Assembly: GCF_964204645.1 (NCBI RefSeq)
Contig: NC_134029.1
Location: 122,001-186,000, forward strand
DNA length: 64,000 nt
Reading direction: 5' to 3'
From: Tubulanus polymorphus
Taxonomy: Eukaryota > Nemertea > Palaeonemertea > Tubulaniformes > Tubulanidae
A program made the position numbers and the translations under genes. The notes under the pieces are model-generated. The model did not search any database. It had not been told where the DNA came from and saw only the letters and a list, made by a program, of their open reading frames with translations. Of this stretch, positions 26,341 through 49,000 are shown piece after piece. Every line of letters begins with the position of its first letter. Position 1 is the stretch's first letter.

Positions 26341-26516
26341 AATATCATCATAGTTTCATGTAACTTGGCAACAGTTGCATAAAAATGGCGTCCACTTGGA
26401 TAGCGATGTAAATATTGTCAGCTCACTTCATATTCAATCTGAATCTAATCAATTCAAGAGATGGGAAACAAAGTGACGAAATTCTTTGGCAAATTGTCTT
26501 GTTGTAAAAAGGTAAG
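26340..26516 (+). other. Duplicate first exon of the myristoylated peptidase-like gene
   Basis: 26340-26516 repeats 27345-27511 almost exactly. It includes the 5' leader, the 51-bp coding exon 26461-26511 (MGNKVTKFFGKLSCCKK) and its gtaag donor. As the donor and phase match, it could act as an alternative first exon giving the same N-terminus, or be a relic of a 1-kb tandem duplication. The sequence between copies (26517-27344) contains no copy of exon 2. A short ORF at 26699-26890 contains VLMMDNIAQH, weakly like a DDE transposase fragment, but this is too little to call. Confidence 0.6.
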
Positions 26517-27455
26517 AATTCGGGTGGTTTTGGATGTTAGACAGAAAAAAAGCCCGAGAGCCAAGAATAAGATCCCCGACCCGCACGCGATCAGCCGTTT
26601 CTTCTCACGACTCAAGACACTTCAACCTGGCAAACTGGCATCCCACACCGGATCAACCATCATGATCTGATCAAGGCTATGTGTGACCATCGTGTGCGGT
26701 GAAAGTGAGGATCTGGCCAGAGTTTTATGGTCTGTGGCTCCAGCGCCAGGGCAGAGCCCATGATCCGTCAGCTGTACTCATGATGGATAACATCGCGCAA
26801 CACGTGCCTCAGTCGAACAGTTGCGACACTCTTCTCTCTCAAAACCCATGGACTTCATTTTTATCACTAAAATACATCGTGCATGTGTAACTTAAAAGAT
26901 AAAAGCCCGGGTGAAGTTAGATTTGAATTTGCAGTAGAATTGGAGTTCAAGAAAAATAGATGATAAAAACTTTTACCAATACGATCGACAAGTTAGAAAA
27001 TCAATTCTTAATATACATTCATAGAACTGGCTCTGTGGTGTCGTGTTAATAATAGAGGACAGCAGGGCGCTGTTTACTTCATACAATAATGACTTCTCTC
27101 TTCTCCCCGAGAAAGATTGGCGCACCGTCCCGGTCCTAGGTAGGTATAGGCTCTGGGCTGGTGAAAGAGAGAGAGAGAAATGTCGCATGGTTCAGGATTT
27201 TATCGCAACGGAGAACTTTTTATATGTAGTCTCTCATCTCAAGGGGTTTTGGTGCGATCTTTGGCAGAGCTGACCATTTAAAGGAGACGGGGAGAGTCGC
27301 TTGGGGAGTGTGGGGCCCGGTCGTATCTAACGACCGTATCTAAGGTTGTGACATCATAGATGTAACTTGGCAACAGTTGCATAAAAATGGCGTCCATTTG
27401 GATAGCGATGTAAATACTGCCAGCTCACTCAATCTGAATCTAATCAATTCAAGAG

Positions 27456-29961
27456 ATGGGAAACAAAGTGACGAAATTCTTTGGCAAATTGTCTTGTTGT
27501 AAAAAGGTAAGAGTTTGAATGCGCAGCAGCAGCAGCAGCAGCAGGAGCAGCTATAATAGTCGTCTTGAGCAAGACTCATCCCTTAGCTTTAATTAACATC
27601 ACACTGTATCCTGACTTGTGGGGGGTGTGGGGGAAGGCTCTTTATATGGCTTTCCCTCTGGCATGACGGTTACCTCAAGGCAAGGATCCATCAAATAAAA
27701 CTTTCAGATGAAGACAGCTTTTTTATTTATGATGAACATAGATTTTCTTCAAAACTTTATTTTGCAATTAAAAATATAATCTATCATATACATTGACCTA
27801 AATATACAAAATACTGATTTATAATCAAATCAATTTGGAAATGAATTAAAATAATTTCGTGACTTTTTAAGTAATTCCTCCAATGTTTAAACTGATACCA
27901 CTCTTATTAAATAGAAATCCTCTAGCCTACTAGTAGCGTATATACGGTTCAGTGGTTCTCATTTTCTTTTTGTAGTTCAGTCACCTCAAACACACATTAA
28001 TTAATTGTTCAATTAATTCTTTCGTCAATTAAACAGTCACAGAGACAATAAGTAGGCCTATAGGTAGGAGTCGAGGGAAGGGGTTTAGAGGGGTTGATAG
28101 GGTACTGAAACTAGATTCATCATCAGATTAAAACCAGGGCCCAATAACACATCATCACTTCAGTACATTCATTCTAAGGCTAACTTGTCCTAGACCTAAC
28201 ATTGTCTAAATCATGACTGTCCAAACCGGCCAAGGGAATATTCATCAATCAAGGGAATATTCATCAATTCCTTTAAAACTTTTAGCAATATATTCTTAAA
28301 TATTATACATGTAATTCTGTATTTATATTCAATCAATCTAAAATATCATTCCTTTAATTATCTTATTCTATTTTTTTATTGAAGCCTCGAAAGAATAAAC
28401 ACGACGAGGAAGTCATAAAGAAATTAGCGGCAGAGAGAAAAACTTCGAGAAAGAGTTCCTCTTCGTTAACCGATGAGTTCTGTACTCCTCCTACGCAATC
28501 CTCATCACACGCTACCCTCACTTCCGTTACTCAGTTACCCGGCAACACCGGCAACAATAATACAGGGTTACCGGGGTTACTAACAGTAGACAGTATCGAA
28601 GCGATGAAAGAATCGAGTGATAATACTCTAACATCGATCTCATCAATCCGTACCGAGGACGGCATTCCGTTACCATCGGTTACAGATATCACAGCTGTCG
28701 CTATAGATACCAACAACAATGATATCGTGATCGAAGAGGATATAAGAAAGTTCTCGCCGTCATCGTCATTTTCCTCTTCATCGATACTGCTTCGATCAGA
28801 CGTCATTCAAACATTCATCGCTCCTCATTCTCCTCATCATTTACAACTCGATTTATCATCTTCATCTTTATCTAACGAGCAGCGGATAGAGCAGCGGGTA
28901 GAGCAGCAGGTAGAGCTGATCGAGTTTACTAATCGATCGCACGGTATTCTCAGGGTTGTACAAGCTCATTATCATCAGGTCAGTTTAACTAACAATCAGT
29001 AAACTATGTATTACTAATATTAACCATTGAATCATCACCAGTGATCACTTAAACACTAATTTATGTAATGACACATCCCTGCAGCAGCTGCTGTTACTCA
29101 ACAATTCGATTATAAATTAAACTGGTTGATAGTGACAATTGAAACTGTTTTGTCACTAGGCTAACTTACCACCAGTTACCGGTTAAACTGAAACTAACTA
29201 CAGTCCCTGATTCTCAAGTGGCGCCAACACTTAGCGCCATAGTATAAATACTTTCTAATTCTCGTTTAAAATGATGAATATTTAATGATAAAGTGATGTA
29301 TTTACAGATGACCATTGAGTCGGGTCCGGTATCGGGAACACAGTGTACATCGATGGCTGTAACAGCTATCTATGCTGCGTATTACGGTAACCCGTTACTG
29401 ATGAACAGCAATCGTCTCGATGATATCCTTAAAGTAGGGAATGCCATTCACGTGTCGGCCGTTAAACATCTACTTCACGTTAACCAGTGCCGCAGTTTAT
29501 TCATTCATCCGTCCGAATACAGACCGGATATTCTCACGGACTCCGGCATGGATCGGTTAACAATAATCGCCGGACCGAGTATCAGCGGGAATCTGAACGA
29601 CGTCGAGATAGACGAGGAAGTATCGGAATTCGCTCTGCCGATACGCGAGGCAATCCTCCGCACGACCGCTCTACCCTACACCGGCGCCATCTTAACTATC
29701 AACTCGGAATCATTCGCAGTTATACCGTCACGTGGTCGCCGTGGTAACAGCGACGAGGAGAATGACGATACGATATTTGTATTCGACAGTCATTCACGAG
29801 ACCCGGACGGACGATCCGACCCAGAAGGCGCCGCTGGGTTATACCAGTATAAGAACGTTGATTGTCTGGTAGAATTCCTGCGAGACGTTCGGAAGAGAGA
29901 TGACGCAGACGGTGCATTGTTTGAAATGACTGGGATTCAGTTTGAAGAGCCACCTGATTGA
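27456..29961 (+). CDS. N-myristoylation-type protein with a C-terminal cysteine-peptidase-like domain
   Basis: Three exons in frame: 27456-27506, 28385-28978 and 29308-29961, giving 432 aa. The N-terminus MGNKVTKFFGKLSCCKK has Gly2, basic residues and a CC pair, a typical myristoyl plus palmitoyl membrane anchor. Residues about 18-200 are low-complexity, Ser/Thr-rich and acidic. The C-terminal 217 residues carry SGTQCTSMAVTAIYAA (Cys228) and, about 150 residues later, DDTIFVFDSHSRDPDG (Asp375, His377). This Cys...Asp-His layout, with Gln just before Cys, resembles the papain-fold deubiquitinase-like peptidases of the C76 type and related invertebrate proteins. That assignment rests on motif memory, not on a search. 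Exon 2 ends in gtcagt, a weaker donor. After the TGA the sequence aggtaaaa could be a 3' UTR donor. Part of exon 2 is duplicated at 36771. Confidence 0.6.
27507..28384 (+). other. Intron 1 of the peptidase-like gene
   Basis: Bounded by gtaaga and ttattgaag. Holds a CAG tract near 27522-27550 and otherwise AT-rich sequence with no gene. Confidence 0.5.
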
Positions 29962-29972
29962 AGGTAAAACAT

Positions 29973-30197
29973 GGTCAGATCCAGTCCAGTCAGACCTAGT
30001 CTAGTCAGACCCAGTCCGGTCAGACCCAGTCCGGTCAGACCTAGTCCAGTCAGACCTAGTCCAGTCAGACCCAGTCTAGTCAGACCTAGTCCGGTCAGAC
30101 CTAGTCTAGTCAGACCTAGTCTAGTCAGATCCAGTCCGGTCAGACCCAGTCCAGTCAGACCCAGTCCAGTCAGACCCAGTCCGGTCAGATCCAGTGT
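29973..30197. repeat. Minisatellite, 15-bp unit, about 15 copies
   Basis: Copies of gtcagacccagtccg with A/G, C/T variants. The same family is expanded to about 75 copies at 36873-37990. 15 bp keeps all frames open. Confidence 0.95.
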
Positions 30198-30260
30198 GTG
30201 CTGACACATTGACTACACTTATCTATAGCGTTTACATTAATACATCTTTTGTATATTTTA

Positions 30261-31435
30261 GCGATCAAAGGATTGTCGGAGGAGAAAGGAGTAGAGGTGG
30301 CGGAGTGGAAGGTGGAGTAGAGGTGGCGGAGTGGAAGGTGGAGGTGGAGTAGAGGTGGCGGAGTGGAAGGTGGAGCAGAGGTTGAGGCGTGGAAGGTGGA
30401 GTAGAGGTGGCGGAGTGGAAGGTGGAGGTGGAGTAGAGGTGGAGATGTGGAGGTGGAGTAGAGGTGGCGGAGTGGAAGGTGGAGTAGAGGTGGCGGAGTG
30501 GAAGGTGGAGGTGGAGTAGAGGTGGAGATGTGGAGGTGGAGTAGAGGTGGCGGAGTGGAAGGTGGAGTAGAGGTGGCGGAGTGGAAGGTGGAGGTGGAGT
30601 AGAGGTGGAGATGTGGAGGTGGAGTAGAGGTGGCGGAGTGGAAGGTGGAGTAGAGGTGGCGGAGTGGAAGGTGGAGGTGGAGTAGAGGTGGAGATGTGGA
30701 GGTGGAGTAGAGGTGGCGGAGTGGAAGGTGGAGTAGAGGTGGCGGAGTGGAAGGTGGAGCAGAGGTTGAGGCATGGAAGGTGGAGGATGAGTAGAGGTGG
30801 AGTAGAGGTGGCGGAGTGGAAGGTGGAGCAGAGGTTGAGGCATGGAAGGTGGAGGATGAGTAGAGGTGGAGTAGAGGTGGCGGAGTGGAAGGTGGAGCAG
30901 AGGTTGAGGCATGGAAGGTGGAGGATGAGTAGAGGTGGAGTAGAGGTGGCGGAGTGGAACGTGGAGGTGGAGTAGAGGTGGAGATGTGGAGGTGGAGTAG
31001 AGGTGGCGGAGTGGAAGGTAGAGCAGAGGTTGAGGCGTGGAAGGTGGAGGATGAGTAGAGGTGGAGTAGAGGTGGAGATGTGGAGGTGGAGTAGAGGTGG
31101 CGGAGTGGAAGGTAGAGCAGAGGTGGCGGAGTGGAAGGTGGAGGATGAGTAGAGGATGAGGAATTAGTGTTAGAGTACCACTGAACTACAGGTAAGATTT
31201 CCCCCAACCACTCAACTGTGTTTTACAATTCAAACAAATAATCACCTCATCACTTCTCTAACGCAGTTACCAGCAGACTGCTGACCAGTGTCCAGTGACC
31301 AGCAGACTGCTGACCAGTGTCCAGTGACCAGCAGGCTGTTGACCAGTGACCAGTGTCCAGTAGGCTGTTGACCAGTGACCAGTGTCCAGTAGGCTGTTGA
31401 CCAGTGATTCATCTTACTGACTTCATCAATACAGG
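30261..31435 (+). ncRNA. Possible spliced exons made of minisatellite sequence
   Basis: A good acceptor tatattttag precedes 30261. The segment then runs through an array of about 26-bp units (gtagaggtggcggagtggaa...) to a donor actacag/gtaaga at 31192. A second segment begins after ctaacgcag (31267), holds about five units of ccagcagactgctgaccagt type, and ends at atacag/gtaagt (31435). The first acceptor and the last donor recur in the duplicate copy at 38057 and 39007. They may be 3' UTR exons of the upstream gene or a separate non-coding transcript; no stable coding frame is present. Confidence 0.3.
30275..31160. repeat. Purine-rich minisatellite, about 26-bp units
   Basis: Diverged ggtggagtagaggtggcgga units mixed with gaggttgaggcgtgg variants. 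The long - strand Ser/Thr/Pro/Leu ORF over it (30185-31207) is a repeat artefact. Confidence 0.9.
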
Positions 31436-31989
31436 TAAGTATTGTAGGAGATGAGAGACACACAGATGGCGCTGACTGACAGACAGGAATAGTTCAATGA
31501 TGATTAATATTTAAGTATCGGTAATATTAATTCATTAACATTCCTAAAACCCTTATAACCCTAACCTTCTGACCCCTCCAACCCGTCCAAACCATTCATC
31601 TACTACATGTCAAAACATTAACAGTGGAATGAAATTCTAATTAGCAGATTTCCATGAACAAATGAATCTGTGTCCTGGCACCTCGGTTAATGACACATAT
31701 TTCTGTGTAAGTCAGTTATTTGTTGAAAGTGGTATTCATAATTGGTAAGTATTTTATATATTACAATTCTCTATTGAAATCTGGATTTGATCAGGAGAAT
31801 ATATTACGATTCATTCATTTAATATTTACAGATAAATAAATGAGCACTGGATTAAATAAAACTGGAATGTGACGATAACACTTCATACTACTGATCACAT
31901 CAACATTCATGAAGTTGATGAGTCAGAGTGAAGAGATCTGGATATCAACCACAGTTTAATGGTCTCAACTGGTTGAACCAGGAATGAAG

Positions 31990-32812
31990 AGACCAACTGA
32001 AACCAAGTGACCACTGATCAAATCAACGACTGGCAAAGTGACCACTGATCAAATCAACGACTGGCAAATCGACCACAGGTCAGACCTAGGACTGGCAAAT
32101 CGACCACAGGTCAGACCTAGGACTGGCAAAGCGACCACAGGTCAGACCTAGGACTGGCAAAGCGACCACAGGTCAGACCTAGGACTGGCAAAGCGACCAC
32201 AGGTCAGACCTAGGACTGGCAAAGCGACCACAGGTCGGACCTAGGACTGGCAAAATGACCACAGGTCGGACCTAGGACTGGCAAAATGACCACACGTCGG
32301 ACCTAGGACTGGCAAAGGGACCACAGGTCAGACCTAGGACTGGCAAAGTGACCACAGGTCAGACCTAGGACCGGCAAAGTGACCACAGGTCAGACCTAGG
32401 ACTGGCAAAGCGACCACAGGTTAGACCTAGGACTGGCAAAGCGACCACAGGTCAGACCTAGGACTGGCAAAGCGACCACAGGTCAGACCTAGGACTGGCA
32501 AAGCGACCACAGGTCAGACCTAGGACTGGCAAAGCGACCACAGGTCAGACCTAGGACTGGCAAAGCGACCACAGGTCAGACCTAGGACTTGCAAAATGAC
32601 CACAGGTCAGACCTAGGACTGGCAAAGCGACCACAGGTCAGACCTAGGACTGGCAAAGCGACCACAGGTCAGACCTAGGACTGGCAAAGCGACCACAGGT
32701 CAGACCTAGGACTGGCAAAGCGACCACAGGTCAGACCTAGGACTGGCAAAGCGACCACAGGTCAGACCTAGGACTGGCAAAGCGACCACAGGTCAGACCT
32801 AGGACTGGTCAG
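31990..32812. repeat. Minisatellite, 31-bp unit, about 26 copies
   Basis: Very uniform gaccacaggtcagacctagg plus actggcaaagc. It is absent from the duplicate segment at 39 kb, so it expanded here after the duplication or was lost there. Confidence 0.95.
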
Positions 32813-33044
32813 TGAATACAAGTATATGTTGTGTACACTAGTGTGGTATTTGTGCTGTATGTTTATGTATAAACTGTTTGTAACTTCTGTTTGATTTGAT
32901 CAATACAATCGATCTCAGTTTAGATGTAGTTATTTATTCTAACTGAAATATTGAATTTGATCAGATACGTTTAAACAGAAAGCATAAATTGTATCTGTAA
33001 CACATACAACACCATACCTGTATCAGCCAGCCCTCTATCTCAAA

Positions 33045-33345
33045 TACAGTCAGTACCAGAATGACATGTAGTCGCACCAGCCAGTACCAGAATGACATGT
33101 GGTTGCACCAGTCAGTACCAGAATGACATGTGGTTGCTAGCACCAGTCAGTACCAGAATGACATGTGGTCGCACCAGCCAGTACCAGAATGACATGTGGT
33201 CGCACCAGCCAGTACCAGACTAACATGTGGTCGCACCAGCCAGTACCAGAATGACATGTGGTCGCTAGCACCAGTCAGTACCAGAATGACATGTGGTTGC
33301 ACCAGCCAGTACCAGAATGACATGTGGTTGCACCAGGAGCCAGTA
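33045..33345. repeat. Minisatellite, 31-bp unit, about 9 copies
   Basis: Copies of agtaccagaatgacatgtgg plus tcgcaccagcc. The same family is expanded at 39112-39975. Confidence 0.95.
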
Positions 33346-33647
33346 GTAGGATTGTACCGGTACCGGTGTGAAGAGCGTCACCTCTCTGATATTACAATGT
33401 TAATATCTTAAACACTTTAATGAAATTACAGTTTTATGTCCAATAATTATCATCACTTTTTACATTAAAACTAATTGTTACGTTGTTCATTTGTATTTTC
33501 AAAATTTTTAGAGGTTAAAGATTTCATACAATGATCATAAATAATCACTTACTTTATAGCACCAGTTATTGCATAGTAATACATGAAATCATCTTAATTT
33601 ATCGAGGCCAAGAATTAAGCGCAGTTTTGGAAAATACAGCCATGTTT

Positions 33648-35661
33648 TTAGGAAGGAATTAGTTGGTACATTGGGTCAATAACCGGAATAATACCGAGTA
33701 TCGAAGACACAACTCCACAAAGACCTTGAATCCCGGAATTCGGCGCTATATAACCTAATGAACTCAGAGGTAAAATGATATCACATGAATTCTTTACACT
33801 ATCCAATAAAATCACTTTGTTTTCGATTAAACATTTAACGATTATTTGCGACCAGGTGTGAGTTTTAGGTTTCACACGGTTTCCAGATTGTTTCCCAACA
33901 ATCTTATTCCTCTTCTTGTAAACAATCTCTCTCATTATCGATACGTAAATCTCATTGATATCTCGAGTCAGATTTAGAATCAGCATCATCAGCCAAAACT
34001 CATATGATAATTGTGACCACGATTGAAGATCGATATGAACCAGTTTTAAACGATTCAATAGAATGATATTATCCGCTATGAAGTAAAGAGCATGCGATAT
34101 TTTTGAGAGCGTCACCAATAATCTCAAAGTAAAATCATCCAATCGAACAGTCCTCAAAGCTGACACGAGAATATCGAAACTTTTAGCAAATCTCAGAACT
34201 GAAAATTAGAAATATCAGTTCTTAAGTAAACACAAACAGTAGTACAGGAGAGTGACACAAAGAATACTGAGTCAGTCACTAATACAATAGAGGATGAATT
34301 GATAAATACCTTTTCTAGTTGTACTGATAGAATATTCGAGGTGTTTAAATTTCTTCACGAATTCTTCATTATTCGGTTTTGATTGTAAATACCACCAGAT
34401 AAATTTACTGCCATATTGTACAATTCTACAAATATAAATTACAAGAAGAATTTCAGCTACAATCTCTACATCATCCCTCTGTATACATAGTTATAGAAGG
34501 GTATAATTCAAGGGGGTTTAGGGGGACATGGTATAAACAGGTATCATTACCACAGCATACACTGTTATAGAGGGAAAGAAGGAACAGACAGATAATGTCG
34601 AGTCGCATCTTTCTGATATTTGGCATTTGCCAGCATTACAGTTCAATGTGGTATAAACAGTTACTGTTTAAACAAATTAAGTGACATTATAAAATTATTG
34701 CTTGTTAACAAATTCTTCGAGTATTTCTCTATATTTCTTAGTATCTCACAATTTCATGTATTTACGATATTTCTATGAGGAATCAATCATTTATTACGTA
34801 CGCATGAAATCTGACTTTTTTTTCACTTCAATAATCAGGGACTCATTATGGGAAAACCTTTTTTTTATATTTTCATACCAACGCGATTGATGACTGACTA
34901 ATTACACAAATTGTAATCAATATTGAATCGTATTCTATCAAGGACTCTTTCATTATATTGAATTATTATTATTAGTATTATAATTATTAGTATTACTGGT
35001 ATTATATATTTCGAGCACAGCTCGTGTGAGTTCAGCTTGTTCTCGAACCTTTTTAACCGTGTTATGTAATTAATTAAAGTATTGATTGTGTATGTATTTA
35101 TGGTTTATGAAAATAAATGTATGATTCCAGGGATTCCAGGAATCGTTTCTTCAGATTTATAGACCAGTTTAAAATTAAACTGGTCAATTTAAGACCAGTG
35201 GTCAACAGATGGTATCATAGCCTAAACTAACATTTCACAACCTTGGATTTTAGAATAACTATCCCTAGCTTCTGATTGGACCAATTGTGGTCACATGATG
35301 TAAACAAACTGACCATACCTACTGGGATAGCATGGACTCGCCCATCAGTTACTGGGTACCATACCGGTACCCCGGCACGAGCCCCCCCCCCCCGGGCACA
35401 GGGCTGCCCGGGAGTCCATTGATCTCTCATTAATAGTACAGATTCAACACATCTATCGTTCAATCACCAACATCTTCCTCTACATCATCACGTACATCAT
35501 TATGTGCACTGCACATCTGAGATAGTAGAACCACCATCCAAATGTACACCCCTCAGATTTTGATGCCCAGCTGAATAAAGAATCATGTCTCCCTACCTGC
35601 ACAGTTTATCCCTGCCAATAGTTTGGGAACTTATTTTTACAACTGTCTCAGCAATATCCAT
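33648..35661 (-). CDS. PEX11: Peroxisomal membrane protein PEX11, copy A
   Basis: PEX11 proteins bend and elongate peroxisomal membranes before fission. Three GT-AG exons, 35661-35597, 34425-34310 and 34198-33648, give 243 aa, a normal length. Exon 1 reads MDIAETVVKISSQTIGRDKLC, exon 2 IVQYGSKFIWWYLQSKP and YSISTTRK, matching the conserved amphipathic N-terminal region (QYG.R...WYL, STTRK). Exon 3 includes LRTVRLDDFTLRLL, SHALYFIADN and a C-terminus LLDSVKNSCDIILPLSSLGY then GLCGVVSSILGIIP, the hydrophobic hairpin near the PEX11A/B C-terminus. No frame break. It lies divergent to a broken COG1 fragment and is the tandem partner of copy B. Confidence 0.92.
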
Positions 35662-36413
35662 TTAATTATTGAGAAACTGCAAAATCAACGGGTTTTAATA
35701 CATTCACTGCCGGCCTAGTACCGTACTTCCCGGCGGTTCTGTCAACAGTACCACTTTGAATAGTACTCCCTGTGATTCTATCACCAGTGACACATTTGAA
35801 TATACTCTTAGCTGGTTCTAACTACGGTATTCACTGTTAGATATTTGCACTTCGCCACACTGAAGAATGACACAGTTCCCTGATTGGCTGACATGTGAAC
35901 AAATGCAGTTTCATTCTCAATCCTCATTGGTCAATTCCGAGGAGCGAAGGTTGACTATGTAACAGCTCCAGTGGCAACTTACGAGTACGTTTATGTGGCA
36001 CTTGGGGGCAGCACATGTCTATTACCAGCAAACACGTTTAAGACAGTAGTTTTAGCAGTCACCATCAGTAATAGTTCTGTAGTTCACCCGTAAACCTATC
36101 TTTATTCTGATTGAAATCGATTTTTAGTTCAACAGTTCATTTGAATCTCTATTTAAGTGTCATGGTTAAGATGTAACATGATTTTCAAGCTGTCTCAACA
36201 TGACCCCTCACTCGTCCCCCCCCCAACTCTTTAATTAAACTGTATTGTGGTAATCACTGCTGATGAAATATATGCTGACCCAGCCCTAAAAAACTCTTTA
36301 TTCCACCTGTTTAGTTTACTGCCTTGGCTCCCCCTCCTTGAGAGCGTTAGCCCCCTCCCCTGACTCAGCAGTGATTACCACATTTGACGGTGAATCATGC
36401 TCTGTACGTTTTC

Positions 36414-36720
36414 TCATTTCATAGGTGAACGTCGAGGTTCTAGAAACGTATAAAAGATGGCGTTACTGGAGAGAAACTCATAAGATAACAGCGAGACGTA
36501 ACAGGATCTGATAGATACTACAATGAAAACTAGCGCTGATAACAGCAAGAGGTTACAGGATCTGATAGATACTACAATGAAAACTAGCGCTGATAACAGC
36601 AAGAGGTATCGGGATCTGATAGATACAGCAATGAGAACTAGCGCTGATAACAGCAAGAGGTATCGGGATCTGATAGATACAGCAATGAGAACTAGCGCTG
36701 ATAACGTAGTGTTAATACTG
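36414..36720 (+). pseudogene. Broken COG1 5' fragment with exon 3 expanded as a 54-bp coding repeat
   Basis: 36180-36470 matches the COG1 upstream region and exon 1 start (shared gtgaacgtc, then aaaagatggcgt), but the frame from ATG 36457 stops after eight codons. Exon 2 and both first introns are missing. From 36490 to 36705 there are four contiguous 54-bp copies derived from COG1 exon 3 (43329-43395), each encoding SKRYRDLIDTAM(K/R)TSADN. Homology ends at 36705, where sequence joins a fragment of the peptidase-like gene. It is the distal end of the left unit of the tandem duplication. Confidence 0.85.
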
Positions 36721-36770
36721 TAGCCTACCTGATTGACACCTCCTCTTCATCATCAGCATCCAAAACTTTG

Positions 36771-36872
36771 ATCTATCATCTTCATCTTTATCTAACGAGC
36801 AGCAGCAGCAGGTAGAGCTCAGTCTGATAGAGTTCACTAGTTCATCGTACGGTATTCTTCTCAGAATTGTAA
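36771..36872 (+). pseudogene. Fragment of exon 2 of the peptidase-like gene
   Basis: Matches 28853-28965 (atcatcttcatctttatctaacgagcag, then gtagagct...gagtt(c/t)act, then acggtattct). It lacks the rest of exon 2 and all of exon 3. It ends at attgtaagt, a consensus donor not present in the parent, directly followed by the 15-bp array. Proximal end of the right unit of the tandem duplication. Confidence 0.75.
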
Positions 36873-37990
36873 GTCCCAGTCCGGTCAGATCTACTCCAAT
36901 CAGACCTAGTCCGGTCAGATCTAGTCCAGTCAGATCCAGTCCGGTCAGATCTACTCCAATCAGACCTAGTCCGGTCAGACCTAGTCCGGTCAGACCTAGT
37001 CCAGTCAGATCCAGTCCGGTCAGATCTACTCCAATCAAACCTAGTCCGGTCAGATCTACTCCAATCAGACCTAGTCCGGTCAGACCTAGTCCGGTCAGAT
37101 CCAGTCCGGTCAGACCCAGTCCGGTCAGATCCAGTCCGGTCAGACCCAGTCCGGTCAGATCTAGTCTAGTCAGATCCAGTCCGGTCAGACCCAGTCCGGT
37201 CAGATCCAGTCCGGTCAGATCCAGTCCGGTCAGATCCAGTCCGGTCAGATCCAGTCCGGTCAGACCCAGTCCGGTCAGATCCAGTCCGGTCAGATCCAGT
37301 CCGGTCAGATCCAGTCCGGTCAGATCCAGTCCGGTCAGACCCAGTCCGGTCAGATCAAGTCCGGTCAGATCCAGTCCGGTCAGATCCAGTCCGGTCAGAC
37401 CCAGTCCGGTCAGATCCAGTCCGGTCAGACCCAGTCCGGTCAGATCCAGTCCGGTCAGATCCAGTCCGGTCAGATCCACTCCGGTCAGATCCAGTCCGGT
37501 TAGACCCAGTCCGGTCAGACCCAGTCCGGTCAGACCCAGTCCGGTCAGACCCAGTCCGGTCAGATCCAGTCCGGTCAGATCCAGTCCGGTCAGATCCAGT
37601 CCGGTCAGATCCAGTCCGGTCAGATCCAGTCCGGTCAGACCCAGTCCGGTCAGATCCAGTCCGGTCAGACCCAGTCCGGTCAGATCCAGTCTGGTCAGAC
37701 CCAGTCCGGTCAGACCCAGTCCGGTCAGATCCAGTCCGGTCAGATCCAGTCCGGTCAGATCCAGTCTGGTCAGACCCAGTCCGGTCAGATCCAGTCCGGT
37801 CAGATCCAGTCCAGTCAGATCCAGTCCAGTCAGACCCAGTCCGGTCAGACCCAGTCCGGTCAGATCCAGTCCGGTCAGATCCAGTCCAGTCAGATCCAGT
37901 CCGGTCAGATCCAGTCCGGTCAGATCCAGTCCGGTCAGACCCAGTCCAGTCAGACCCAGTCCAGTCAGACCCAGTCCGGTCAGATCCAGT
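36873..37990. repeat. Minisatellite, 15-bp unit, about 75 copies
   Basis: gtcagatccagtccg copies with gtcagacccagtccg and gtcagacctagtccg variants. Two long - strand ORFs (430 and 215 codons, LTGLD and TGSDR repeats) arise because 15 is a multiple of three and no unit holds a stop; they are not treated as genes. Confidence 0.97.
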
Positions 37991-38056
37991 GTGTGCTGAC
38001 ACATTGACTACACTTATCTATAGCGTTTACATTAATACATCTTTTGTATATTTTAG

Positions 38057-39010
38057 CGATCAAAGGATTGTCGGAGGAGAAAGGAGTAGAGGTGGCGGAG
38101 TGGAAGGTGGAGTAGAGGTGGCGGAGTGGAAGGTGGAGTAGAGGTGGCGGAGTGGAAGGTGGAGCAGAGGTTGAGGCGTGGAAGGTGGAGTAGAGGTGGC
38201 GGAGTGGAAGGTGGAGTAGAGGTGGCGGAGTGGAAGGTGGAGGTGGAGTAGAGGTGGCGGAGTGGAAGGTGGAGTAGAGGTGGCGGAGTGGAAGGTGGAG
38301 TAGAGGTGGCGGAGTGGAAGGTGGAGTAGAGGTGGCGGAGTGGAAGGTGGAGTAGAGGTGGCGGAGTGGAAGGTAGAAGGAGAAGTGGCGGAGTGGAAGG
38401 TGGAGCAGAGGTGGCGGAGTGGAAGGTGGAGGTGGAGTAGAGGTGGCGGAGTGGAAGGTGGAGTAGAGGTGGCGGAGTGGAAGGTGGAGTAGAGGTGGCG
38501 GAGTGGAAGGTGGAGTAGAGGTGGCGGAGTGGAAGGTGGAGTAGAGGTGGCGGAGTGGAAGGTGGAGGTGGAGTAGAGGTGGCGGAGTGGAAGGTGGAGT
38601 AGAGGTGGCGGAGTGGAAGGTGGAGTAGAGGTGGCGGAGTGGAAGGTGGAGTAGAGGTGGCGGAGTGGAAGGTGGAGTAGAGGTGGCGGAGTGGAAGGTA
38701 GAAGGAGAAGTGGCAGAGGAGTCGAAGGTCGAGTTGAGAGTGGACTAGGAGGAAGTAGAGCAGGCTGTTGATCAGTGTTCAGTGTCCAGTGACCAGCAGG
38801 CTGTTTACCAGTGACCAGTAGACTGCTGACCAGTGTCCAGTGACCAGTAGACTGCTGACCAGTGTCCAGTGACCAGCAGACTGCTGACCAGTGTCCAGTG
38901 ACCAGCAGACTGCTGACCAGTGTCCAGTGACCAGCAGGCTGTTGACCAGTGTCCAGTGTCCAGTAGGCTGTTGACCAGTGATTCATCTTACTGACTTCAT
39001 CAATACAGGT
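38057..39010. repeat. Duplicate of the 26-bp and 29-bp arrays
   Basis: Corresponds to 30261-31435. 38080-38750 holds the ggtggcggagtggaaggtgg array, more homogeneous than the left copy; 38765-38975 holds ccagtgaccagcagactgct units. The acceptor at 38057 and the atacag/gtaagt donor at 39007 are kept, but the internal donor and acceptor pair is gone. Confidence 0.9.
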
Positions 39011-39111
39011 AAGTATTGTAGGAGATGAGAGACACACAGATGGCGCTGACAGACAGGAATAGTTCCGCAATTTTAATTATTTTAGCATTCCTAAAACCCT
39101 TAAACCCCTAA

Positions 39112-39978
39112 CCCTCCCAGCCAGTAACACACTGACATGTGGTCGCACCAGCCAGTAACACACTGACATGTGGTCGCACCTGCCAGTAACACACTGACAT
39201 GTGGTCGCACCTGCCAGTAACACACTGACATGTGGTCGCACCTGCCAGTACCAGAATGACATGTGGTCGCACCAGCCAGTACCAGAATGACATGTGGTCG
39301 CACCAGCCAGTACCAGAATGACATGTGGTCGCACCAGCCAGTACCAGAATGACATGTGGTCGCACCAGTCAGTACCAGAATGACATGTGGTCGCTAGCAC
39401 CAGTCAGTACCAGAATGACATGTGGTCGCACCAGCCAGTACCAGAATGACATGTGGTCGCACCAGCCAGTACCAGAATGACATGTGGTCGCACCAGCCAG
39501 TACCAGGAGACTGACGTGTGGTCGCACCAGCCAGTACCAGAATGACATGTGGTCACACCAGCCAGTACCAGAATGACATGTGGTCGCACCAGTCAGTACC
39601 AGAATGACATGTGGTCGCACCAGCCAGTACCAGAATGACATGTGGTCGCACCAGCCAGTACCAGAATGACATGTGGTTGCACCAGTCAGTACCAGAATGA
39701 CATGTGGTCGCACCAGTCAGTACCAGAATGACATGTGGTCGCTAGCACCAGTCAGTACCAGAATGACATGTGGTCGCACCAGCCAGTACCAGAATGACAT
39801 GTGGTCGCACCAGCCAGTACCAGAATGACATGTGGTCGCACCAGCCAGTACCAGGAGACTGACGTGTGGTCGCACCAGCCAGTACCAGAATGACATGTGG
39901 TCACACCAGCCAGTACCAGAATGACATGTGGTTGCACCAGTCAGTACCAGAATGACATGTGGTCACACCAGCCAGTTT
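39112..39978. repeat. Minisatellite, 31-bp unit, about 28 copies
   Basis: agtaccagaatgacatgtgg plus tcgcaccagcc, with a variant end block reading agtaacacactgacatgtgg. A block of about 354 bp repeats within it (a gctagcaccag variant at 39393 and 39742; a gagactgacgtgtgg variant at 39507 and 39855), showing block duplication. Confidence 0.95.
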
Positions 39979-40262
39979 GACACCAGTGAGGGAGCGTCAC
40001 CTCTCCGATTTTACTTTTATGCTTCATGAAATTACAGTTTCATGTCCAATAATTGTCACCTATTCTAACATTAAAACTAATTGTTACGTTTTTCATTTGT
40101 ATTTTCACATTTTTAGAGGTTAAAGATTTCATACAATAATCATAAATAATCACTTACTTTATAGCACCAGTTATTGCATAGTAATACATGAAATCATTTG
40201 ACTAAACCTTAGTCTTTTAAGGCCTAGAAATACGAACAGTTCGTGAAAATACAGCCATGTTT

Positions 40263-42386
40263 TTAGGAAGGAATTAGTTTGAACATTGGGTCAATAACCG
40301 GAATAATACCGAGTATCGAAGACACAACTCCACAAAGACCTTGAATCCCAGAATTCGGCGCTATATAACCTAATGAACTCAGAGGTAAAACGATATCACA
40401 TGAATTCTTTACACTATCCAATAAAATCACTTTGTTTTCGATTAAACATTTAACGATTATTTGCGACCAGGTGTGAGTTTTAGGTTTCACACGGTTCCCG
40501 GAATGTTTCCCCACAATCTCGTTCTTCTTCTCCTCGTAAACAATCTCTCTCATTATCGATACGTAAATCTCATTGATATCTCGAGTCAGATTTAGAATCA
40601 GCATCATCAGCCAATACTTATTCGATAACTGTGACCACGATTGAAGATCGATAGGAACCAGTTTTAAACGATTCAATAGAATGATATTATCAACTATGAG
40701 ATAAAGAGCTTGCGATATTTTTGAGAGCGTCACCAATAATCTCAAAGTAAAATCATCCAATCGAACAGTCCTCAAAGCTGACAGGAGAATATCAAAACTT
40801 TTAGCAAATCTCAGAACTGAAAATTAGAAATATCAGTTCTTAAGTAATCACAAACAGTAGTACAGGAGAGTGACACAAAGAATACTGAGTCAGTCACTAA
40901 TACAATAGAGGATGAATTGATAAATACCTTTTCTAGTTGTACTGATAGAATATTCGAGGTGTTTAAATTTCTTCACGAATTCTTCATTATTCGGTTTTGA
41001 TTGTAAATACCACCAGATAAATTTACTGCCATATTGTACAATTCTACAAATATAAATTACAAGAAGAATTTCAGCTACAATCTCTACATCATCCCTCTGT
41101 ATACATAGTTATAGAAGGGTATAATTCAAGGGGGTTTAGGGGGACATGGTATAAACAGGTATCATTACCACAGCATACACTGTTATGAAGGGAAAATAAG
41201 TAAAGAAGGTACAGAGAATATTGCCGGTAGCCGGTATACAATGTCAGGTCACGCCCTGCTGATATTTGGCTTTGACAATGAGCCCTAACTAAGACCAAGG
41301 GGCTAGGGCTTTCATCTTTTGGGAGGGAGGATATCAATCAGTACAATTTGGAGTAAAACTGTTACTGTTAGTGACATGATTCAATGGGTTCTCATATCTA
41401 TTTATTCCTTAGCATCCCCAGATGGATCAGATCAATAGACAATTTTAGAATTAATTAAACTGGCCAATTTAAGACCAGTGGTCAACAGATGGTATCATAT
41501 CCTAAACTAACATTTCACAACCTTGGATTTTAGAATAACTATCCCCAGCTTCTGATTGGACCAATTGTGGTCACATGATGTAAACAAACTGACCATACCT
41601 ACTGGGGTAGAATGGACTCGCCCATCAGTTACCATCCCTCTAACATTGGATTGAACTAACCCTAGGGTTAGGGTTACCATACCTCTAAGGTTAGAATGGA
41701 CTAAACCTAGGGTTAGGGCTAGCATCCCTCTTGGATTGAAATGGACTAACCCTAGGGTTAGGGTTATCATCCCTCTACTAGGATTAAAATGGACTAACCC
41801 TAGGGTTAGGGTTACCATCCCTCTAAGATTAGAATGGACAAACCCTAGGGCTCTGATTGGTCTACTAGACCTGGTTGCTTGACTGACCACATTCTGGACT
41901 GGTCACTCGGTGGATCCAGATTCACTTAGGCCTAGCTCCTCGATCCTCATATTAAGAACATACAGCATTTCAAGAACAGATTCTAAACTCCAGAAACCGA
42001 GACAGAAATTACTGGCATTGGTTCATAATAATGCCCTAGAGATAAAACACCAGCACTGATAGCGGTCCACTAATCTGGAGTACCCCCCCCCCCCAGCAGC
42101 AGGAGCCCCAGCCCTGCTGCGGTTACAGGGCTGCACATGAGACCACTTTAGCCTATCAGTTGTTTGCAAATTCTACACAGCTAGCATTCAACCAACATCT
42201 TCCTCTACATCATCATGTACATCATTATATGCACTGCACATCTGAGATAGTAGAACCACCATCCAAATGTACACCCCTCAGATTTTGATGCCCAGCTGAA
42301 TAAAGAATCATGTCTCCCTACCTGCACAGTTTATCCCTGCCAGTGGTTTGGGAGTTTATTTTCACAACTGTTCCGGCGATATCCAT
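40263..42386 (-). CDS. PEX11: Peroxisomal membrane protein PEX11, copy B
   Basis: Same three-exon plan as copy A: 42386-42322, 41043-40928 and 40816-40263, giving 244 aa. Exon 1 differs in a few residues (MDIAGTVVKINSQTTGRDKLC). Exon 2 encodes the same residues as copy A. Exon 3 differs at scattered positions and has one extra residue near YEEKKNEIVGK. All splice sites and the stop are kept, so both copies look functional. Copy B is divergent from intact COG1 (ATG at 43035, 649 bp away), suggesting a shared promoter region. Confidence 0.92.
41440..42300. other. PEX11 copy B intron 1 with telomere-like repeat
   Basis: Within the intron between exons 1 and 2. 41640-41850 has about five copies of a 43-45 bp unit containing taaccctagggttagggtta, i.e. 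head-to-head CCCTAA and TTAGGG motifs. This array is absent at the corresponding place in copy A (around 35350). A run of c is at 42085-42094. Confidence 0.7.
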
Positions 42387-43034
42387 CTAAATGTTGAGAG
42401 CTGACACAGTGTAATTAACGGGTTTTAAAGACAATAGTTTTAGAAGAAGTCGGTGTCACTTGATTGCGATAAGAATGAGTTCAGAAAGCCGGCGCTAGAT
42501 GTCGCCAGCTGACGGTGTATTTACACGTATTGACAGTTCAGCGACTCGGGGGCAAGTTACAGCAAACCCTCTACTTACCTCTTACTTGTAAACCTATCTG
42601 TAACCCTATAGAGGTGAGTGATCACCGTCCCCGCACTGCCCGGTGTTTGGATCCATCACTTGTTGCTGATATGGCGCTGAATTCTCTGAACATATTTAGT
42701 GAATAGTCTGTGTGTACCACTCCCGGTCCCTGACCCATATATTCAACCCCTCACTCCGAACCCCTCACTCACCCCTGGCCAACCTCCCTTGCTTCATCCA
42801 CTGCAGCTCTTGAGAGGGTCCGACCTTTAAAAAAACTTAATTCGACCTGCAAAGTTCAGATTACTGCCTCTCAGTCGAGTTGGCTTCTGTCCCCGCGCGC
42901 CATGGCGTAACTTACCTCCCCCTCCCCAGATTCAGCAGTGATGATATTACCACATTTAACGATGAATCAGGCTGTGTATGTTTTCTTTTCCTGTAGGTGA
43001 ACGTCAAGGTTAAAGGAACGTAAAGGAATAAAAG
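42387..43034. promoter_or_regulatory. Divergent PEX11B-COG1 intergenic region
   Basis: 649 bp between two start codons facing apart. The duplicated counterpart (35662-36456) keeps parts of it, including cagcagtgat...taccacattt(g/a)acg(g/a)tgaatca just before the COG1 leader. Those conserved stretches are the best candidates for promoter elements. No TATA box is placed with confidence. Confidence 0.4.
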
Positions 43035-46000
43035 ATGGCGTCACCGGATATGGACATCAATATGATATTTGATAAATTCACAATCGAAGAAATTCGTAAC
43101 ATTGAGAAAAAAACAAGGTTTGAATAAATATCAATCAATTTGTAAATAATCACTGATTATAGTTAAATTATATAAACCGATATTTATCTCAGGTTGGACA
43201 TAGAACGGAAGAAAGAAGATTTAAGACAGATGGTCGGGTATGTATTAGTGTATATATCAGTTACTAGGGGGCGCTGTCACAGTGATTAGTGTATATATGA
43301 CTCACTAGGGGGCGATGTATATTTACAGCGAGAGGTATCGGGATCTGATAGATGCGGCAGATACAATAACATCGATGAAAACTAGCGCTGATAACGCAAG
43401 TATTGATAATCAACCTGATCAACTGATAGTTTGATACGGTAGGTTTCAGTGTGTCGGTTTTTACTGTATTTACAGGTGATGAAATCAGTGAATAAAATAC
43501 AGGAATATTGTCAAACATTGAAACAGAATCAGATGATTAAAGGAGTTTCAGTTAGTTATAAAACATCTACTAATACCAACAAGTAAGATATACCTTCCTC
43601 AATAACTCATCAGTGTGAGTTCCTCAATAACTCATGTGTGAGTTCCTCAATAACTCATGTGTGAGTTCCTCAATAACTCATCAGTGTGAGTTCCTCAATA
43701 ACTCATGTGTGAGTTCCTCAATAACTCATCTGTGAGTTCCTCAATAACTCATCTGTGAGTTCCTCAATAACTCATGTGTGAGTTCCTCAATAACTCATCA
43801 GTGTGAGTTCCTCAATAACTCATCTGTGAGATCCTCAAACTCTTTCTGTATTCTGATTATTCTGTAGGAAGAGAACTGAATGTCGATTCCTGTCGATTGC
43901 TGCACAGATTAAACTGTTGTTGGACACACCAGAGAGGATATGGACAGAACTGGACAGCAGTGAATATTTAAAGGCTACTCAATTATATCTAGTAGCGAGA
44001 CACGTTCATACTTCATTACAACTAGATACACAACAATCAACAGCTATACACACGTGGTTTCCTGTCCTCACTCGCCAGTGGACGGCTATAAGTCACTTCA
44101 GAGCTAGTATACTACAGGTAAACTGTCCCCTCACTCGCCAGTGCAGGACTGCCTCATTCATTAATCCCTCACTCACCAGTGACTGATTTTGTAGGAATGT
44201 CGCCAAGTGCTGAAAGATTCATCTAAACCTGTGAAAGTGATCACAAACAGTTTATGTTCGATAATACTGTTAGAAGATTCGAATCCTAGACAAGTTTTCT
44301 ATGAATTCCTGCTCGCTAGGTCTGTAAGTATAAAACCTAGATCAGTTCGGTTAAAACATTGCTTTATGGTGAAACACTATGAGTTTGAGAAACCCACACT
44401 ACAATCTGAATAGTTTCCTTCAAGCTTATCATTTATTGATTTGATGTTTTGACTATAACCTAACATCAGTATTCCTGGACCCAGTTCCACAGTTGTGAGT
44501 TAGAGTTAACTCTGAGTTAAAGTTAGTTCATTTTCGATGAGTAAACTTGGAGTTAAATCTTAACTCGGAACTGTGGAACTGGACCCTGAAGATGACTATC
44601 AGATTATAGTCGAAACGTCAATTGAATAGATAATTAGTTTAAAGGAAACTTCTCAGATTCTAGTGTGGGATTCTTTATATAAACATTGCTTCCATTTCAT
44701 CTAATCTCAGTTCAACATTTCCTCTAATCCCAGTTCCACATTTCCTCTAATCCCAGTTCCACATTTCCTCTAATCTCAGTTCCACATTTCCTCTAATCTC
44801 AGTTCAACATTGATTTCTTGTCTGTATCTATTTTTCACAGAATTCGATTCTACAATTGTTTAAATTGGATCAACAATCAAACTCGATTAAATCACAAATC
44901 TGTTCAGTAGTGAATATACTGTGTACGACCATACAACAGATATATCAGATATTTCATAGCGACGACGAAGAGGAAACCACTGCTGTGAATGAGGAGATGA
45001 AGGAGGAGACAGAGGAGGTACACAACAACGGCAACATAAAAAATACTAATCTACTCGTGAAAACATTACAGGAAATATCTGAGAAACATAAAGCAGGTGA
45101 GTACACGATGAACCACTAGAGGGCGCTGGTTTAAATACTCTCTCAATATTGTGGCTTTTTGTCGAACTGTGGAATTGTTATCTATTTCAGAACAACTGTT
45201 ACAGAAAGATCATGTTGGAACTAGTATTCTAAAGTCTGTAGCTGGTAAGTATAGTTCTGGAGGCAGTTCCTCAATTATACAGTTAAAGTTAGCTACTGGA
45301 TAGATGCCTTAGTGACAATTAAAATTACATTGTAAACATGATGTTTGTCTCCACCAGTGTTAACTGTATCCTAGTTTAAGGTAACTGTAGTCACTAGTCT
45401 AGGTGTTTGTTTAGTTTAACTATTTCTAATTAAAACTTGATCGAAATAGATTTTCAGTTTATCGTACAAACTCCTATAACGGGAATATCGACCAATCAGC
45501 TTCGAGAGAAATCTCATCAGTGGTTAGAGACGTGTTTAAGAGACGTAACTGACGGTGTTTGTAAATTATTGAGTTACATCACGAGTATCCGGGCGATGAC
45601 CTCAATACGAGACGACATCTGGAATCAATTATCAAACTCTGAAATATCTCACGACTGGAATTCAATTTGTGAACGCGTTCTAAACAGAGATATCTCAATC
45701 TGGGACGATTTCCTGAGAAAACTGTTCATACAACGAGTCAATGTAAGTAAAATCGTCTATCCCTGAATATTGAGTACTACCTGAAACAGTCCCTGGCAAG
45801 TGTGTATTTTGTATTTATAGGAAATTCTCGAAGGCCAGTTTGACAACGCGTTACTGACTACAAATCAACATCTGGAGAAAATTCTCAATGAAATCATTGG
45901 TTCAGAGAGGTAAATAGCACTCTTCCATTCTCTCTCTCTCCCCTCTCCTCCCTTCTCTCTCTTCCCTTCTCTCGGTCTCTCTCTCCTCTCCCTCTCTCTC

Positions 46001-49000
46001 TCTCTCCCTCTCTCTTCTCTCCTCTCCCTCTCTCTCCCTCTCCTCTCTCCTCCCTTCTCTCGGTCTCTCTCTCCTCTCCCTCTCTCCCTCTCCTCCTCTC
46101 TCCTCCCTTCTCTCGGTCTCTCTCTCCTCTCCCTCTCTCCCTCTCTTCTTCTCTCCCTCTCTCTCTCCTCTCCCTCTCTCTCCCTCTCCTCCCTTCTCTC
46201 TCTCTCTCCCTCGCCACTCTCTTCTCTCTCCTCTCCCTCTCTCTCCTCTTTCCCTCTCTCTCTCCTCTCTTCTCTAAATCTCACGTCTATGTTGTATTTC
46301 AGAACTGTATCGTTGGATAGTGATTTAACCACTTACGTTTGGAAGGAACATATCTCAGATATAGCGAGTGGAGCTGCGTGGACGCCATCTATCTCTAAAT
46401 CACTAGCAGACGCTGCTGGATTAACTATGAAATCAAAGATGTATACGCCTAATTTACAAACGTAAGACTGACCCCCCTCAAAGTTTCCTCATTCTACGTC
46501 CTCCGATTCAGGAATCTGTGATCAGATTCTCTTTGATTTTTTTGTAGTTTGTGTAAAAATTTGGACAATAAACTGAAATCATTGTTGGAAGATATGAGTT
46601 ATTATACGACAGCGCCACCTGGTGAGACTCATCGTGATGCAGCAACTGCAGCTACAGGTGGAGTGTTTGACAGAACTGCTGATAATTTATCAATTCATTC
46701 ATTCTTACAAAACACTTGTGAACTCTGCATTAAGAGGTAGCGAAGTCATTCCATAAAATTCAACCAGTATTTTAACAATCCACCTTGAATATAAAGATGA
46801 TTTATTCAATTAATTATAGGTTGCTGGGTAATATAAACTCACTAGTAACGCAGTATAAATCATTGTTGTCATCGTCGAGGCAACAGGCATTGATAGATGG
46901 TATATTATTCTGCGGTAGATTGTGTCAGGCTATCGGAGATCTCTGTCCAAACATACAACAATGTATCATCGGTTTGAACAAACAATCGGACACAGTGAAG
47001 TAAGTAAACTAGCCTGGGTACCCTTACTCTTACTGGGAGTTACCCTTCTCTTACTGGGAGTTACCCTTACTCTTACTGGGAGTTACCCTTACTCTTACTC
47101 TATTTCTTACCAGAAGTTATCGGTATTGTTGTTATTGTGTTATAGGTCGAATCGTAGACATTCTAGTTTAACAACATCAAAGAGTAAAACAGCAGCAGCA
47201 GCAGACGACCCAAAATGGACAACAATTAAACAGTTACTGTCAGACGAGTCTTTATCAGCTTACAAGTGAGTGAAAATACGGAGGGAGGGGTAGGGGTAGA
47301 CATGGGGGAGGGGGAGGGTAGACTGACAGAGGGAGGGATAGGGGTAGACAAAGGGAGGGGGATGGGTAGACTGACAGAGAGGGAGAGGTAGACTGGTCCA
47401 TCTGATTCTAAAATGAAGTATGACAACGCTTATAGGTTTTGGAGTCACTGTTTTTAGGGCTTGTTTTGTGTTTTTAGGGTTTGGAGATGTTTCACATCAG
47501 ATTCAATGATAACGCAACTTAAACAGTGTTTACTGGATACAAGTTTACAAGGTTTACTACACAACTCTACTGTAAGTTAATCAGACTGATTACTCCAAGG
47601 TTACATACACAACTCCTACTCCTGCTGCTCCTACCGTTGCCGCTGCCGCTGCTGCTGCTGCTACTTGCGAGGTGTTTATATTGATTATTATATTATTTAG
47701 AAATGGGATGAAGTATCAATAGAAGAGGAATCAGAATCAGGACGAGTGATTCGTTCTAGTATTCATATTCCGATGCAGGTGTCGCCGTATATACAAACAT
47801 TTCTATACAATCTGTGCACAGAAATCAACAGGATCGGAGGCCATACTGTTAATAGGTAAGACTCATAATTCAGGCACTGATGCTTAGGCTTAAACTGCTA
47901 TGGGCTGAGACGTAAAGGAGTGGCTAAAAATTATGACCCCAGTCCGTAGATAGTAACAGTCCATCTGTGTAACCTCAATGTTTCTGTAATTGATCCGTGT
48001 AACCTCAATGTTTCTGTAATTGATCCGTGTAACCTCAATGTTTCTGTAATTGATCCGTGTAACCTCAATGTTTCTGTAATTGATCCGTGTAACCTCAATG
48101 TTTCTGTAATTGATCTGTGTAACCTCAATGTTTCTGTAATTGATCCGTGTAACCTCAATGTTTCTGTAATTGATCCGTGTAACCTCAATGTTTCTGTAAT
48201 TGATCCGTGTAACCTCAATGTTTCTGTAATTGATCCGTGTAACCTCAATGTTTCTGTAATTGATCCGTGTAACCTCAATGTTTCTGTAATTGATCCGTGT
48301 AACCTCAATGTTTCTGTAATTGATCTGTGTAACCTCAATGTTTCTGTAATTGATCTGTGTAACCTCAATGTTTCTGTAATTGATCCGTGTAACCTCAATG
48401 TTTCTGTAATTGATCCGTGTAACCTCAATGTTTCTGTAATTGATCCGTGTAACCTCAATGTTTCTGTAATTGATCTGTGTAACCTCAATGTTTCTGTAAT
48501 TGATCTGTGTAACCTCAATGTTTCTGTAATTGATCTGTGTAACCTCAATGTTTCTGTAATTGATCCGTGTAACCTCAATGTTTCTGTAATTGATCTGTGT
48601 AACCTCAATGTTTCTGTAATTGATCCGTGTAACCTCAATGTTTCTGTAATTGATCCGTGTAACCTCAATGTTTCTGTAATTGATCTGTGTAACCTCAATG
48701 TTTCTGTAATTGATCCGTGTAACCTCAATGTTTCTGTAATTGATCTGTGTAACCTCAATGTTTCTGTAATTGATCTGTGTAACCTCAATGTTTCTGTAAT
48801 TTATAGGAAAGTTTTATGTGAATTGATTGAACAAACAACTGATGAACTGGTGAATGTATACAGCGAGTGCATAAAACCACCCATAGATGGCGTGGCAGTC
48901 GTACCATTTACTCAGAATCGAGCGTTACAAATGCTGTTCGATATTAGATTCATTTCATACATGTTTCCACGAAAAGACGATTCTGCGGTAAGTGAAATCA

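Follow-up and report, generated by a model that had tools for sequence, protein, structure and literature searches.

The 64,000-nucleotide window analyzed here (coordinates 122001-186000 on contig C5 of a 267.8 Mb, 77-contig eukaryotic assembly) contains a tandem segmental duplication in which PEX11 is present twice and intact, and the pattern of divergence between its units is best explained, with a probability of about 0.78, by one old tandem duplication followed by patchy interlocus gene conversion. When the window is compared with itself, a colinear direct diagonal links ~28.8-36.7 kb with ~36.7-43.4 kb at offsets of ~6-8 kb, and the sequence has no N gaps. Homologous blocks were called from a blastn chain with the arrays masked; seven were found that keep their order and orientation in both units, and no inverted matches between the units were detected. 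Each unit contains, in order, the tail of peptidase exon 2, arrays of 15-, 26-, 29- and 31-bp repeats, PEX11, the PEX11-COG1 spacer and the start of COG1. The units and blocks (left/right) are:

28823-36741 (approximate), forward strand: left unit, from the masked blastn chain
36742-43433, forward strand: right unit, from masked blastn; the right boundary, within COG1 intron 3, is an estimate made by eye
28823-28960/36742-36871: block, peptidase exon 2 fragment
30196-30287/37991-38082: block separating the 15-bp array from the 26-bp array, identical at 92/92 positions
31408-31569/38982-39116: block
33362-34588/39982-41206: block, PEX11 exons 2-3
35151-35347/41427-41627 and 35375-35698/42099-42428: two blocks, PEX11 intron 1 and exon 1
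36351-36487/42918-43067: block, COG1 promoter and start, after which COG1 exon 3 matches

The first-pass annotation of this DNA had described two colinear direct units with the same content, and this is confirmed by the self dot-plot it proposed, with coordinates that were correct to within ~50 bp. It had also invoked a single event, which is plausible given the one novel junction, near 36741/36742, where COG1 is joined to peptidase exon 2. Its statement that the duplication joins three genes holds for PEX11, which is intact twice with all splice sites and stops as claimed, but is overstated for the other two, because the left unit retains only a truncated relic of COG1, and the right unit one of the peptidase gene.

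33648-35661, reverse strand: left PEX11 (alpha/beta type), exons 35661-35597, 34425-34310 and 34198-33648, 243 aa
40263-42386, reverse strand: right PEX11 (alpha/beta type), exons 42386-42322, 41043-40928 and 40816-40263, 244 aa
43034-47850, forward strand: 5' part of the intact, single-copy COG1, with later exons further right
36458-36741, forward strand: left COG1 relic, with start codon, early stop and four 54-bp units from COG1 exon 3
27459-29961, forward strand: intact peptidase gene (Herpes_teg_N/C76-like, Pfam PF04843), exons about 27459-27509, 28385-28978 and 29309-29961
36742-36871, forward strand: truncated peptidase exon 2 relic, exon 3 lost

Both PEX11 copies have three exons, conserved GT-AG introns and the stop codon, and match nearly the full PF05648 profile (E values of 4e-56 and 3e-57; 190 and 194 bits against a curated cut-off of 23.8). 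Over 243 codons they differ at 34 nucleotides, giving 18 amino acid changes, together with one codon indel. The Ks-type comparison that had been suggested for the pair yields, by counting, a pS of 0.100 and a pN of 0.032 (Fisher p = 0.001), so at least one copy is constrained; purifying selection has kept at least one of them and probably both, although a dN/dS below 1 may stem from constraint on one copy only. Elsewhere in the genome the PEX11 stretch matches only through short pieces of dispersed repeat, and the genome search returned one other PEX11 locus, on C12, which we take to be of the gamma type from motifs rather than from a tree. On that reading the duplicated gene appears to be the only alpha/beta-group member in this genome.

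The two orphaned gene ends have decayed. The right COG1 copy encodes a Vps51/EXO84/COG1 N-terminal domain (PF08700, E = 1e-18), and beyond the duplicated 5' part the gene is single-copy. An intact 5' coding region was sought in the left copy and not found: its ATG frame reaches a stop after 8 codons, most of exon 1 through intron 2 is gone, and the exon 3-related sequence is amplified four-fold (a 4 x 54-bp array), which is why this relic was compared by local matches. The intact peptidase gene matches Herpes_teg_N (C76-like) with an E value of about 1e-6. Its right fragment is 18.7% diverged from the left copy over 123 sites and directly abuts the 15-bp array, ~1 kb between exon 2 and that array being missing from the right unit, exon 3 included.

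Divergence between the units is not uniform. A two-rate model (a two-state HMM) over 2,240 aligned sites is preferred to a single rate with 2dLL = 204, and gives event rates of 1.1% and 24%, the latter possibly inflated by misalignment at block edges. The PEX11 introns are 0-2.5% diverged, against 12.4% for the PEX11 3' flank and 18.7% for the orphaned ends, the relic alignments being short (~100-130 aligned bases each). The PEX11 block is continuous with few gaps, and its longest stretch of identity, 338 bp, extends from intron 2 through exon 2 into intron 1; a run of this length was reached in 0 of 20,000 shuffles within the block. A contrast between hand-picked segments gives a p of about 5e-23 but is descriptive only, since the segments were picked with the data already in view, a post hoc choice from which only the HMM and the run-length shuffle are exempt. 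Unusually identical tracts inside diverged paralogues, as are typical of interlocus gene conversion, are present, among them:

34094-34566 (partner 40712-41184), unstranded: near-identical tract, putative conversion, 3 events in 473 sites, from the end of PEX11 exon 3 across intron 2 and exon 2 into intron 1
30124-30343 (partner 37919-38138), unstranded: near-identical tract, running from the end of the 15-bp array through the spacer into the start of the 26-bp array

If there had been no exchange after the duplication, these near-identical tracts would cap its age at ~1%, which conflicts with the decayed ends. Later gene conversion best explains recent-looking islands in an old duplication, as it fits both the islands and the decay. 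We propose that a single ancestral duplication in tandem, whose breakpoints lay in peptidase exon 2 and COG1 intron 3, produced a second copy of a 7-8 kb segment that would already have contained four minisatellites and one PEX11 alpha/beta gene. The promoter region between the head-to-head PEX11 and COG1 genes would have been copied too, leaving each PEX11 copy with a start and upstream region of its own. The orphaned right peptidase and left COG1 ends would then have decayed. Patchy conversion would later have re-homogenised PEX11 exon 2 with its introns and the array-edge spacers, and the array interiors, a dispersed-repeat insertion and the copy-specific arrays would have diverged independently. 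It is conceivable, if improbable, that minisatellite edges start the recombination, in which case the array-adjacent identical tracts would be conversion tracts and the array interiors would turn over freely; the pair would then serve as a natural assay for conversion driven by minisatellites in a metazoan-like genome.

We consider it unlikely that the duplication is old and the islands reflect patchy functional constraint in introns and spacers with no conversion at all. Exon 2 and the intron parts could hold splicing or regulatory elements, and some islands may indeed be under non-coding constraint. However, 338 bp are unchanged across an intron-exon-intron stretch that lies beside exon 1, where 9 of 65 bases differ; identity is 86% in exon 1 and ~98% in the neighbouring intron, unlike an effect of coding constraint. 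Identical islands also flank minisatellites where there is no gene; that introns and intergenic array edges show conservation and an exon does not makes constraint the weaker account.

Slightly more doubtful is a recent duplication by unequal exchange between diverged haplotypes, whose ancestral allelic differences would make up the mosaic. This accounts for bimodal divergence with no need for conversion, but the ~1% age cap leaves too little time for the decay of the orphaned ends (18.7% divergence, a 1-kb loss and a four-fold array), unless the alleles were already defective. Least probable of all is an assembly artefact in which two haplotypes of one locus were set in tandem: a false duplication would likewise end within genes at the join, but there is no N there, the left COG1 (exon 1 to intron 2 lost, four-fold array) and the right peptidase end (exon 3 lost) are unlike alleles of intact genes, the spacers are 19% diverged or unalignable and the remainder of COG1 is single-copy, and a true old tandem duplication, unlike haplotypes placed side by side, should show decay at both orphaned ends.

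The arrays do not provide a clock for repeat growth. They and the unit-specific inserts are, all on the forward strand except the unstranded dispersed repeat:

29974-30195: left 15-bp array, 15 units (14.8 copies)
36876-37990: right 15-bp array, 74 units (74.3 copies)
30288-31143: left 26-bp array, 856 bp
38083-38743: right 26-bp array, 661 bp
31264-31407: left 29-bp array, 5.0 copies
38786-38980: right 29-bp array, 6.0 copies
33047-33336: shared 31-bp array, left copy, 9.1 copies
39117-39976: shared 31-bp array, right copy, 27.3 copies
32028-32808: left-only second 31-bp array, no match elsewhere in the genome search
41628-41850: right-only 45-bp array, starting where identity with the left unit stops
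35754-36014: dispersed repeat present only on the left, with 39 or more further matches across the genome at 72-85% identity

The duplication is probably younger than all four shared arrays. Genome searches matched the 31-bp arrays only to the duplicated locus, and the 26-bp array has few, weak matches (70-83%) elsewhere. The left 15-bp array has the unit string CFBBGGLHFFADDBJ and the 74-unit right string ends in ...AAADDBJ; only the last five units (ADDBJ) are in the same order in both, and the common unit variants differ in frequency. Not all of the arrays grew in the same unit: the left unit has the longer 26-bp array, and the right unit has the longer 15-bp and 31-bp arrays. The first-pass annotation had stated that the arrays differ greatly in copy number between units; its proposal of an internal clock for minisatellite growth is unsupported, because divergence is bimodal (1.1% versus 24%), so that no single time separates the copies, and the 15-bp unit order cannot be aligned beyond the shared edge. 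Array lengths cannot be turned into a rate.

This is a fairly ordinary duplication, in that independent PEX11 duplications and conversion mosaics are both already known. PEX11 has been duplicated independently in many lineages (PMC8172628). As in other lineage-specific alpha/beta paralogues, an alpha/beta-group gene is the one duplicated here, with a single gamma-like gene on C12, but these copies are still in tandem with shared flanks and visible relic ends. Conversion mosaics in segmental duplications have been catalogued for human (PMC3790853) and likewise comprise near-identical tracts in diverged paralogous segments; here there is one pair, with tracts called by run length and a two-rate model without an outgroup. 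In a marine invertebrate, the sea urchin, tandem segmental duplications in the Sp185/333 immune cluster are associated with short tandem repeats (PMC5103432); that cluster is a large, fast-diversifying family, in contrast to the one housekeeping pair here. The locus adds a well-resolved instance of lineage-specific PEX11 duplication and illustrates how patches of an old duplication can come to look young through gene conversion, a warning for attempts to date array growth or duplications by overall divergence or by the Ks of one gene.

Several minor features deserve mention. Minisatellites are abundant in the window, with 95 Tandem Repeats Finder rows; among them is a 30-bp unit array at 53640-55852 with 74 copies. 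Another 30-bp array, at 47963-48801 in the COG1 region, stays partly open across all three forward or reverse readings; its match to Pfam Pentapeptide_4 is compositional and probably a low-complexity artefact. The third COG1 intron (~43402) has an apparent GC-AG boundary (AAC/GCAAGT...CAG/GTG), the sole frame-keeping reading by eye. A long open reading frame at 36737-37999 in the right unit is not a gene; it is the open frame of the 15-bp (5-codon) array and has no upstream start. The left intron insert at 34590-35180 was rejected as a whole element, its dispersed matches being two short pieces (~50-60 bp). Peptidase exon 1 is locally duplicated (26358-26517 and 27360-27512, 93.8% identity), and its product, MGNKVTKFFGKLSCCKK, resembles a myristoylation/palmitoylation anchor. 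Open reading frames of ~690-700 aa with a Herpes_teg_N-like domain are present at L025:649-2721, where an OTU domain is also encoded, and at further places on C1, C5, C7 and C9, and their near-equal scores across several contigs suggest a mobile element.
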